Assembly: GCF_016859125.1 (NCBI RefSeq)
Contig: NZ_CP069338.1
Location: 7,751,501-7,815,500, forward strand
Source of the DNA: Archangium violaceum
GTDB lineage: Bacteria; Myxococcota; Myxococcia; Myxococcales; Myxococcaceae
Reading direction: 5' to 3'
DNA length: 64,000 nt
In this document: positions 11,073 to 17,340 of the stretch, one piece after another
Numbering within the stretch: position 1 is the first letter of the stretch
Layout: every line of letters starts with the position of its first letter
The notes under the pieces: model-generated
What the model saw: only the letters and a program-made list of their open reading frames with translations
What the model was told of the DNA's origin: nothing
Database searches by the model: none
Translations under genes and position numbers: made by a program

Positions 11073-11195
11073 GAAGAGGGAGTCGGGAGCGGCTGTTCGT
11101 TCGCCGGTAGAATGGGCGGAAGGGGGCTGGCATGGCGGGCCGGATTCCGTTACCTGCTCGCCTCGCGGGGGCCCGGTAGGGCAAAGAGGAGCCAC

Positions 11196-12614
11196 ATGGA
11201 AGCGAAGAAGAAGGTCGGAGTCATCGCGGCGGTATTCGGGCTGGCCGTGGCGGTCATTCCCTTTCTCCTCCCGACGGGCCCGAGCTCGAGCCTGGACGCG
11301 GCGCGTTTCCTCGAGGCCGGCAGCTTCGCGCTCGGCGCGGCCGTGGTGTTCGCCGGGGGGCTGCTCACCGCGATGACGCCGTGCGTCTACCCGCTCATCC
11401 CCATCACCGTGTCCGTCTTCGGGGCGCGCAAGGCCGAGGGCCGGGGCAAGGCGCTCGTGCTGACCAGCGCGTACATCGTCGGCATGGGGGGGGTGTTCAG
11501 CGCGCTGGGCGTGCTGGCGGCGAAGACGGGGCAGGCCTTCGGCTCGATGCTCGGGAGTCCCGTGGTGGTGACGGGGCTGGCGGTGTTCCTCCTGGCGTTG
11601 GCCACGTCCATGTTCGGCGCCTTCGAGCTGGCGCTGCCCCAGGAGCTGCAGCAGCGGCTCAACTCGGTGGGGGGCTCGGGCCTCACGGGGGCCTTCCTCA
11701 TGGGCAGCGTGTCCGGCTTCCTCGCGGCCCCGTGCACCGGGCCGGTCCTGACGGGCCTGCTGGCCTTCGTGGCGAAGTCGCAGAGCACCGTGCTCGGCGC
11801 GGCGCTGCTCTTCATCTACGCGCTCGGCATTGGCGTGCCCTTCTTCCTCATCGGCGTCTTCACCGTGCGGCTGCCCCGGGGCGGCGTGTGGATGGAGTGG
11901 GTGAAGAGCGTGCTGGGCATCGTGCTGGTGGCGCTCGCCATCTCGTACCTGAAGGACGGTTTCCCGGCGGTGGGCGGGGTGGTGAAGGGCCTGGCCGATC
12001 AGCTCGGTCGCGCACCCGGCGCGGCCATCGCCGCGGTGCTGGCCATGCTGGGCGTGCTGCTGGGCGCCATCCACCTGTCCTTCAAGGAGGGCGCGCGCGA
12101 CTTCACGCTCAAGGGCTTCGGCGTGGCGTTGGTGGTGGTGGCGCTGGTGGTGCGGGGGGGCGCCATGGACACGAAGAGCGTGGGCTCCCTGTGGGTGTCG
12201 CTCGGCCTGATGGAGCAGCCGAAGGCGCCCTCCTTCGAGTGGCACGCGGTGATGCCGGCCAAGGGCAGCGGCTTCTCGTCCGAGTCCTTCGAGCAGGTGC
12301 TGGCCCGCGCGAGGAGCGAGGGCCGGCCGGTGATGATCGACTTCTTCGCGGAGTGGTGCGCGGCCTGCAAGGAGCTGGACCGTGAGACGTACCCGGCCCT
12401 CGAGGTCATCGAGGAGTCGGGCCGCTTCGTCAACGTGAAGGTCGACGCCACGAACGGCGATGACGCCCTGGACGCGCTGATGGAGCGCTTCGGGGTGGAG
12501 GGCCTGCCCACGGTGGCGTTCATCTCCTCCACCGGGGAGCTCCTCCCGGCCCCCCGGGTGACGGGCTTCCTCGAGCCGCGCTCCTTCGTCGTGGAGATGA
12601 AGAAGGTCAACTAG
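11196..12614 (+). CDS. DsbD-like thiol:disulfide interchange protein lacking the N-terminal periplasmic domain
   Basis: 472 residues from the ATG at 11196 (AGAGGA upstream). The transmembrane core has the two redox cysteines C63 (TPCVYPLIP) and C180 (APCTGPV), as in DsbD/CcdA. The C-terminus is a thioredoxin domain with WCAAC (C388/C391). It would pass electrons from cytoplasmic thioredoxin across the inner membrane to periplasmic thiols. The N-terminal alpha domain of E. coli DsbD is absent; one helix at residues 7-26 takes its place. Confidence 0.87.
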   Translation: MEAKKKVGVIAAVFGLAVAVIPFLLPTGPSSSLDAARFLEAGSFALGAAVVFAGGLLTAMTPCVYPLIPITVSVFGARKAEGRGKALVLTSAYIVGMGGVFSALGVLAAKTGQAFGSMLGSPVVVTGLAVFLLALATSMFGAFELALPQELQQRLNSVGGSGLTGAFLMGSVSGFLAAPCTGPVLTGLLAFVAKSQSTVLGAALLFIYALGIGVPFFLIGVFTVRLPRGGVWMEWVKSVLGIVLVALAISYLKDGFPAVGGVVKGLADQLGRAPGAAIAAVLAMLGVLLGAIHLSFKEGARDFTLKGFGVALVVVALVVRGGAMDTKSVGSLWVSLGLMEQPKAPSFEWHAVMPAKGSGFSSESFEQVLARARSEGRPVMIDFFAEWCAACKELDRETYPALEVIEESGRFVNVKVDATNGDDALDALMERFGVEGLPTVAFISSTGELLPAPRVTGFLEPRSFVVEMKKVN

Positions 12615-15733: not shown

Positions 15734-16324
15734 TCAGTCGTCGTCCTCGAGCCGGCCCCGGGCGGTCAACACCCGGTCGATCATCAACTCGTGGAGCTCG
15801 TGGAGCGGGCGGGCCACCTCCTCGCCCTCGAGGACGGTGATCGCCCCGGCGATGGCCTCCACGGTGGACATGCCATAGGGGTGGGGCGAGCGGCGCAGGC
15901 GCCGGGCCTCCGGGGGCGGCGGGGGCAGGGCGAGCCCCGGAAGGCGGCGCAGCTCGTGGAGCCGCTGGTACATGCGCCGGGCCTGTGTCCAGTTACCGTC
16001 CAGCACCACGAGCCGCTCGGGCGGAGGTGTGCCGGGCGGAGGCGGCTGGGCATCCGGGAAGAGCAGCCAGGTGCCCGGCGCGGCGAGCACCGACAGGTCG
16101 AACGGCTGGCCCGGCGCCCCGTAGGTGACGATGCGGCAGCGCGTCAGGGCGAGCCCCGCCAACCGCGCCGTGTTGGTGGACTTGTTGGCTTCCTTGTTGT
16201 GCCGGATGACGAGGAAGTCGGTGCGCGTCTCAATCCGAGGGACGTCGGCGCACAGGCACAGGGCGGTGGGCAGGTAGCAGGTAGGACAGCGTCCGGCGAA
16301 ATCCGCCGGGGTGCGAGACCTCAT
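15734..16324 (-). CDS. DTW domain protein (tRNA acp3U transferase family)
   Basis: 196 residues. The DTW signature appears as VLDGNWTQARRMYQR. An N-terminal Cys cluster, CPTCYLPTALCLCADV, is the usual zinc site, and the conserved HNKEANKSTNTARLA segment follows. The family (TapT/TuaA, DTWD1/2) transfers an aminocarboxypropyl group from S-adenosylmethionine to uridine in tRNA. The start codon overlaps the stop of the upstream gene (16321-16324), so the two are translationally coupled. TapT or a TSR3-like rRNA enzyme cannot be separated from sequence alone. Confidence 0.8.
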   Translation of the reverse strand: MRSRTPADFAGRCPTCYLPTALCLCADVPRIETRTDFLVIRHNKEANKSTNTARLAGLALTRCRIVTYGAPGQPFDLSVLAAPGTWLLFPDAQPPPPGTPPPERLVVLDGNWTQARRMYQRLHELRRLPGLALPPPPPEARRLRRSPHPYGMSTVEAIAGAITVLEGEEVARPLHELHELMIDRVLTARGRLEDDD

Positions 16325-16866
16325 TTGCCCTGACGGTAACGCTGCATGAGCTCGCGCGCCTCGCGCAGCTTGGACTCGACGAAGCGGTCCTCGGCGTCCA
16401 TCTCCTCGTCCGTCTCCATGCCGAGCTGGAAGAGGGCCGACAGGTTGGCCGGGTTGATGTCCAGCCACTCGGCGGTGCGGTCGAGCACGTTGCGGCGGCG
16501 GCCGGCGAACGTCTCGGGGCTCTCGTCGGGCAGGCAGCGACAGACCCGGGCCGAGTCGCTGCCCACGTCCACGTAGAGACCGAGCACCTCGGTGTCCAGC
16601 TCGGCGGCGATGGCGGAGGCGGCCTCGGTGACATGGGCGGCCAGGGCGTGCGCGGCGGAGCGCTCGGTCATGGAGCGCACCAGGTAGACGCGCCAGCCGG
16701 CCTCGCCGAGCGTGCCAGCGGCCTCGAGCGGGGCGAGCTCGGCGGGAGGAGCGGAGATGCGCGTGAGGACGCGGCGCACGGGTGCCTCGATGTTCTCGAG
16801 CTGGGCGCTCGAGGTCGGGCAGAAGAAGACGACGCGGTACTCGCGGCTATCGACGGAGGGTTCCAT
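16321..16866 (-). CDS. Hypothetical protein coupled to the DTW gene
   Basis: 181 residues from the ATG at 16866; no family recognised. It begins EYRVVFFCPTSSAQLENIEAPVRRVL, and the C-terminal third is acidic and helical (AEWLDINPANLSALFQLGM). No signal peptide, membrane span or cysteine motif. The 4-bp overlap with the DTW gene downstream suggests a functional pair. It is divergent from the selenoprotein candidate, with 111 bp between starts. Confidence 0.6.
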   Translation of the reverse strand: MEPSVDSREYRVVFFCPTSSAQLENIEAPVRRVLTRISAPPAELAPLEAAGTLGEAGWRVYLVRSMTERSAAHALAAHVTEAASAIAAELDTEVLGLYVDVGSDSARVCRCLPDESPETFAGRRRNVLDRTAEWLDINPANLSALFQLGMETDEEMDAEDRFVESKLREARELMQRYRQGK

Positions 16867-16977
16867 GAGGGGACTGCTCCCGTGGACTCTGACGGGATCT
16901 CTCAAGAGGACCACTCCCCCGGCCCCCAGTGCAAGCGGGTATTTGAGGGAGTGCGGTGGGACTGCTACACGGGAGGC

Positions 16978-17316
16978 ATGTCCATCACGCTCTATATCAA
17001 GAACGGTTGAACGGGTTGTAAGTCAGCGCGGGAGTTTCTCGCGCAAAAGGAAGTGCAGGCGGAAGTACGGGAGCTGACGAAGAAGCCGCTGAGCGAGGCC
17101 GAGGTCCGGGCGCTGGCGGCGAAGATGGGAGGCGTCCACCAGTTGATAGCGCCCAAGAGGAAGGCGGAGCTGGGGGCGCTCGGGGAGGAAGAGCTGGTGA
17201 CGCACCTGGCGGCGAACCCGAACCACGTACGCAGGCCCCTCATCGACACGGGGAGCCGGCTACTGGGGGGCTTCACCGCGGAAGTCCGGGCGGCGCTGGA
17301 GAAGGAGCTGAAGTAG
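16978..17316 (+). CDS. Putative selenoprotein: ArsC/Spx-family thioredoxin-fold protein with in-frame TGA (UxxC)
   Basis: From the ATG at 16978, with GGGAGG 4 nt before it, the frame reads MSITLYIKNG, a TGA at 17008-17010, then TGCKSAREFLAQKE and on to a stop at 17316: 112 residues if TGA is read as selenocysteine. Length, the LYxxxx-C-TxC-KSAREFL N-terminus, TKKPLSEAEV and the ANPNHVRRPLID segment fit the ArsC/Spx (PF03960) family. TGA falls exactly on the catalytic Cys of the CxxC motif, giving UTGC. A stem-loop follows it at 17026-17044. The frame is open on both sides, so no frameshift is needed. A nonsense mutation is the alternative. Annotators would otherwise miscall it as an 87-residue ORF from 17053. 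Confidence 0.75.
17026..17044 (+). promoter_or_regulatory. Candidate bacterial SECIS stem-loop
   Basis: GCGCGGGA (17026-17033) pairs with TTCTCGCGC ending at 17044: five G-C pairs, a G-T wobble, a G-C and an A-T pair close a GTT loop (or an AGTTT loop without the A-T pair). The loop G is the 24th nucleotide after the TGA, inside the range known for SelB-binding SECIS elements, and it is followed by T as in fdhF. The bulged U of the E. coli element is not evident. Confidence 0.5.
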
Positions 17317-17340
17317 CCCCTTCCCTCCGGTCCCCATGGG

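Follow-up and report, generated by a model that had tools for sequence, protein, structure and literature searches.

A probable selenocysteine-containing protein of the ArsC/Spx fold in Archangium violaceum and related myxobacteria

The window (the whole analyzed stretch of 64,000 nucleotides from Archangium violaceum) contains a seemingly broken gene that almost certainly yields a complete redox protein, because its internal stop codon is very probably read as selenocysteine (Sec). The gene (16978-17316, plus strand) codes for a protein of 112 residues, 111 ordinary ones and Sec at position 11, with a predicted ArsC/Spx-like thioredoxin fold. The frame ends with TAG (17314-17316) and has a single in-frame TGA (17008-17010). 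By alignment to Spx and by comparison of homologues, this TGA very probably specifies U11, the first residue of a UxxC motif (U-T-G-C). Cys14 (17017-17019), invariant in 19 of 19 homologues, is the likely resolving cysteine of this motif. With the TGA read as Sec, the N-terminus is MSITLYIKNG-U-TGCKSAREFLAQ.... An initial annotation had already proposed that the TGA is read as selenocysteine, and this is strongly supported by the Sec machinery of the genome, the TGA in all 19 close homologues found, the Cys paralogues and a constrained hairpin. The whole is best explained by a functional UxxC selenoprotein made by SelB- and hairpin-dependent Sec insertion, which we consider highly probable.

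The initial annotation had described the frame as MSITLYIKNG-TGA-TGCKSAREFL, open to codon 112, which was confirmed (112 residues, one TGA). It also considered the ATG well supported. This applies to its conservation (the position is identical in 9/9 same-family sequences) but not to its ribosome-binding site, which is not a good one: GGAGG is found one base upstream of the ATG in the window, and the stretch is intact in 3 of the 9 same-family sequences. A shorter, GTG-started ORF (17053-17316, plus strand) does exist, as claimed, and is the output expected of a standard gene caller. Its GTG is present in just 7 of the 19 homologues (six same-genus sequences and L015), and thus is not the start codon of the family. 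A truncated gene starting at 17053 is therefore ruled out, and this ORF is not the real gene.

The downstream ORF is nevertheless what might be expected of a pseudogene, that is, an ArsC-like gene recently inactivated by the TGA, its 3' part being either in decay or saved by a start codon further down. The restricted occurrence of the GTG argues against this, as does the conservation of the TGA itself. In a first search of 59 relatives, a gene with one TGA was found in 11 genomes, and weaker, TGA-less matches in 17. A profile search of 195 genomes from the phylum yielded 38 matches with E values up to 1e-12; the 15 that scored 145-193 bits have exactly one TGA each, and the 23 that scored 51.6-56.1 bits have none. 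Two peptide patterns, one of which included the Cys form GCTGC, were run against 84,980 named species genomes and returned nine loci, all with TGA. Duplicates were removed (L053, L054, L055, L056 and L057, which are the same contigs as G004, G001, G010, G028 and G080), and 19 distinct genes remain. Their sources include Archangium, two Myxococcaceae MAGs, one Polyangium MAG and further Myxococcales MAGs, with six of the 19 belonging to one genus. Within the scope of the phylum genomes and the two-pattern scan, all 19 close homologues carry the TGA codon, with zero other stops and zero substitutions. The initial annotation had named such stops or random substitutions as signs of a pseudogene. 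Protein identity to the window protein ranges from 92 down to 39% in the homologues measured (L071, L073 and L075 left out), and the reading frame, open apart from the TGA, is conserved on either side of it. Independent decay would not retain one stop codon together with a hairpin, so that a pseudogene is rejected on the grounds of conservation and has a very small probability. The pattern is that of a selenoprotein, with UGA conserved in the close homologues and Cys in others.

The hairpin is of the bacterial SECIS type (17026-17044, plus strand) and also codes for the residues AREFLA. An 8-bp stem (17026-17033 paired with 17037-17044) encloses a GUU loop (17034-17036). It begins 15 nt past the TGA, and the loop G lies 24 nt past the last TGA base; the spacing and the GTT loop are as described in the initial annotation. 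The loop G of a SECIS element has a usual distance from the UGA, and this hairpin is positioned just 3' of the UGA with its loop G within the range commonly given. Its folding energy (-13.2 kcal/mol, z -2.32; 4 of 200 shuffles were equally good) is by itself modest evidence, and the comparative evidence carries the case. A scan of 16900-17320 against Rfam, at E up to 10, found no SECIS family and gave one chance snoRNA match (12.9 bits).

In the 19 genes, the six hairpin codons are GCG (19/19), CGG (18/19), GAG (19/19), TTT (18/19), CTC (18/19) and GCG (19/19). The loop Phe is thus nearly always TTT, a codon used for 4 of the 33 Phe residues in the rest of these genes, where CTC accounts for 93 of 247 Leu codons and CGG for 69 of 172 Arg codons. 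The only invariant residue outside the hairpin that is as fixed in its codon use is P37 (CCG in 18/19). Among pairs with like residues, synonymous differences were found in 54 of 1026 for the six hairpin codons, compared to 288 of 729 for the eight codons that precede the TGA, 286 of 608 for the five that follow and 78 of 188 for the two beyond the hairpin. Synonymous sites of the hairpin thus hardly vary, and, judged from this pattern, it is evidently constrained as RNA.

Covariation was analyzed after the addition of four sister Sec genes of the phylum (L105, L106 and L107, which exceed the NF041106 cut-off, and L110, which does not); they have the same AGUU at the same distance from the TGA (23 rows, 19 of them distinct). 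Two-sided changes occur in three of the eight pairs, and 94.1% of the cells are paired. The covariation score is 0.143 compared to 0.079 in shuffles, with 0 of 500 as high in a shuffle test that ignores relatedness. The true register beats each of the six slid registers in pairing and in covariation score; a slide by +1 equals it on two-sided cells and pair types, and the observed count of pair types is attained by 15 of 500 shuffles. The two-sided changes are found solely in L105, L106 and L110, which are outside the 19-gene clade. Within the 19 genes, the stem is changed on one side (L061) or the loop-closing A-U pair is broken (L019). L106 and L107, which are of the NF041106 type (see below), break three and five of the eight pairs in the register used.

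The initial annotation had suggested a genome search for selA, selB, selD and selC (tRNA-Sec), taking the lack of selB or selC as a sign of a pseudogene. All four are present in the host genome, a single contig of 12.68 Mb. The tRNA-Sec scores 73.2 bits, and ARAGORN agrees (tRNA-SeC, anticodon tca). The protein-coding genes are well above their cut-offs: selA with 576.9 bits (cut-off 268), selB with 325.6 (242) and selD with 380.3 (125). All 11 Sec-gene genomes among the 59 relatives have a tRNA-Sec of at least 66 bits and a selB above the cut-off. This co-occurrence adds little because the background is already high (tRNA-Sec in 44 of 59, selB in 45 of 59; p 0.03 for the association with tRNA-Sec). 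One relative, G013, has a full-length selB above the cut-off and no tRNA-Sec above 44.1 bits, perhaps due to an incomplete assembly.

Two further genes of the host are probable selenoprotein genes. SelD itself (L050; G000:C1:12336739-12337668, minus strand) has an in-frame TGA within the motif HCAG-U-AAK, which corresponds to the UxxK motif given for SelD in the relevant passage of PMC9312934. An FdhA-like ORF (L120; G000:C1:3768004-3768756, minus strand), which scores below the TIGR01591 cut-off, has an in-frame TGA in the context NQARI-U-HSST. Thus, at least three UGA genes (ArsC/Spx-like, SelD and FdhA-like) probably share one Sec machinery.

The TGA had been placed at the position of the catalytic Cys of the family. 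This is borne out: its counterpart in the CxxC motif of Spx is the first Cys, and distant paralogues have Cys there. In a tblastn comparison of 32 paralogue loci, Cys is opposite the UGA position in 30 (29 CxxC and one CxxS; three of these rows are the same gene fetched twice, leaving 27 distinct). For L028 the alignment fell on another part, and L030 yielded no row; eight more phylum matches lie outside the 32 loci. The myxobacterial CxxC paralogues (e.g., L020) are about 27-36% identical to the window protein over the aligned part but form a separate group on long branches.

When the 59 relatives were queried with a Cys protein, 22 genomes had a match of at least 76 bits and the next score was 48; the threshold of 76 bits was chosen after this gap was visible. 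Such a paralogue is found in none of the 11 Sec-gene genomes but in 22 of the other 48. Fisher's test gives p 0.004 by genome and p 0.03 by genus (0 of 6 compared to 18 of 37), with relatedness ignored and several genomes incomplete. In ten of the Sec-gene genomes, the Cys query retrieved the Sec gene itself (and, in G010, also a partial match of 24.5 bits), and in G012 it had no match. This mutual exclusion suggests that the Sec form replaced the CxxC ArsC-like paralogue in these lineages, and the Sec protein may do the job of that paralogue in other myxobacteria.

The label "ArsC/Spx-family" given in the initial annotation is correct by fold and profile. Pfam Glutaredoxin (30.9 bits) and Pfam ArsC (PF03960, 26.7 bits with a gathering cut-off of 24) both match the window protein above their gathering scores, and the closest solved proteins by sequence profile are Spx (61.7 bits, E 7e-16). 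An AlphaFold model, built from ten sequences with Cys in place of Sec, has a pLDDT of 92.1. Its best structure matches (Z 13-15.7) are Spx (3ihq, Z 15.7, 108 aligned residues, 2.3 A), a B. fragilis ArsC-related protein, YffB and ArsC, the matched entries including 3gkx, 1rw1 (YffB) and 1i9d (ArsC, Z 13.1). Glutaredoxins and the Uxx-star glutaredoxin-like selenoproteins (NF041212 and kin) share the thioredoxin-like fold and the U/CxxC motif, and NF041212 weakly matches the N-terminal part, below its cut-off (23 of 66 bits). Their models, however, comprise 70-99 positions and are shorter than the window protein. None of the curated NCBIfam models scored above its cut-off against the window protein.

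Should the resemblance to Spx extend to function, the protein might be a true transcription regulator of the Spx kind (Bacillus subtilis and relatives) that senses selenium or oxidants via U11-C14 and binds the alpha subunit of RNA polymerase. Spx is the best solved relative by sequence and by structure, with the UxxC at the position of its CxxC. The same fold is, however, common to YffB-, ArsC- and glutaredoxin-like proteins. Besides having Sec for Cys, the window protein is also shorter than solved Spx chains (120-132 residues) and falls far short of the Spx model cut-offs (PRK01655, 42.7 of 123 bits; TIGR01617, 42.6 of 75). The only Spx/MgsR row in our tree is on the side of the Cys paralogues, on a long branch and with unsure placement. 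It is thus rather improbable that the protein is an Spx-like regulator. A more specific version, in which replacement of a CxxC ArsC/Spx-like protein by the Sec form produced an Spx-type redox switch that depends on selenium, is given very little credence.

An arsenate reductase of the ArsC type, with its catalytic Cys turned into Sec, would account for the Pfam ArsC match, and related ocean proteins bear that name in a printed row of PMC2398784. This function is nevertheless unlikely: the glutaredoxin-type arsenate reductase model TIGR00014 gives 26.2 of 106 bits, the second Cys is at +3 as in Spx, and a Pfam scan of eight neighboring ORFs found no arsenic-resistance family. The catalytic arginines of ArsC are R60, R94 and R107 of the R773 enzyme. 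In the 19 homologues, R85-R86-P87 is invariant.

The gene neighborhood was compared by an all-against-all comparison of ORFs from 17 neighborhoods of 7-16 kb, considering clusters present in three or more loci. No neighbor common to the lineages was found among them, so that the context gives no hint of the substrate. Sharing is limited to the genus plus G012 and to a single ORF cluster that three f7 loci (L095, L096 and L100) have in common, at varying distance from the Sec gene; the other clusters with many loci are the gene itself and shadow frames. A conserved operon is rejected for these neighborhoods. The nearest scanned neighbors in the window are an ORF without Pfam match and EamA, DTW and MATE proteins. 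As the neighbors also differ between the compared lineages, the Sec gene seems to stand alone. The divergent upstream ORF (16321-16914, minus strand, 197 aa) has no Pfam match, and its frame is found beside the Sec gene in G001, G002, G003 and G012. A DsbD-like membrane protein with a C-terminal thioredoxin domain is encoded about 4.4 kb upstream (11112-12614, plus strand), with no sign that it belongs with the Sec gene.

The closest described kin are the proteins modeled by NF041106 (ArsC_rel_Se_1; 'Arsenate reductase 2' of GOS), which are also small, have the ArsC/Spx fold and carry Sec as the first residue of UxxC. One member, L105, has a related hairpin (GCGCAGGAGTTTCTTGCGC) at the same distance from the UGA as in the window gene. 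Eight of the ten members of set A3 match NF041106 at E 0.001 (best E 2.1e-9), and the window protein reaches 33.4 bits (25.4 from DNA), with a cut-off of 85. In a tree of 43 rows, the NF041106 group is nearest to the Sec genes but separated from them by a branch of 2.0 changes per column (99/98), so that the window protein belongs to a clade apart. One NF041106 member from this phylum (L104) has Cys, whereas the 19 genes all have Sec. Cys paralogues, a YffB-like row and the Spx/MgsR row (the only such protein from a plasmid search, 30% identity) are beyond the midpoint root. Long branches separate the Sec genes from both the Cys paralogues and the NF041106 group; with an open fork and a midpoint root, the tree does not establish that the Sec genes are monophyletic, and the tree program issued a warning about long branches meeting. 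A second kind of ArsC-like gene with TGA in a UTGC motif (L110; G082:C191, minus strand) has the hairpin GTGCGGGA-GTT-TCTCGCAC and scores 56 bits against NF041106 (cut-off 85). It possibly represents a further UxxC sub-clade, and its relative L108 has Cys.

We take cd03032 to be the ArsC-Spx group. This identifier appears in PMC2398784 (row 'Arsenate reductase 2, cd03032, UxxC', with the values 42, 21 and 238), which in 2008 used ocean metagenomes to predict ArsC-like selenoproteins with UxxC. The family is also listed in passages of PMC9312934 and, as NF041106, of PMC13188914. Passages of PMC1794560 list an ArsC-like selenoprotein for Desulfotalea and a distant one for Desulfuromonas; there, the selenoproteome of the anaerobe Anaeromyxobacter consists of 11 proteins, without an ArsC-like one. 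The main text of PMC5029168 contains neither 'Myxococc' nor 'ArsC'. Among the matches listed in a literature search (titles, starts of abstracts and passages), there was no description of this myxobacterial Sec clade, and no selenoprotein study naming Archangium was found. The novelty of a UxxC ArsC-like selenoprotein had thus been overstated in the initial annotation: the kind is known, in print (PMC2398784, PMC9312934) and as a model, and the window protein is a further member, below the NF041106 cut-off.

For the decoding, we propose that SelB, loaded with Sec-tRNA(Sec), binds the hairpin that begins 15 nt past the UGA, and that the ribosome puts Sec at residue 11. The product would be a single-domain ArsC/Spx-like protein of the thioredoxin fold with an N-terminal U-T-G-C. 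The motif suggests, as the most likely first step, an attack of the Sec selenolate on an oxidized substrate; Cys14 would resolve the intermediate as a selenenylsulfide, and a cellular thiol system would then reduce it. The protein would thereby be a selenol/disulfide oxidoreductase, and we consider it somewhat more probable than otherwise that it acts as a stand-alone redox enzyme.

The 19 genes add a well-supported selenoprotein clade in the myxobacteria, one whose gene in the window would be trimmed by a standard gene caller to a fragment without the redox site. The window protein is not claimed by any NCBIfam model. An annotation model could be built from the 19 sequences. If a Spx-type Sec switch did exist, the selenium supply itself would set the stress response in these lineages. 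The mutual exclusion of Sec and Cys forms among related genomes is a natural test of what Sec gains over Cys in one fold.
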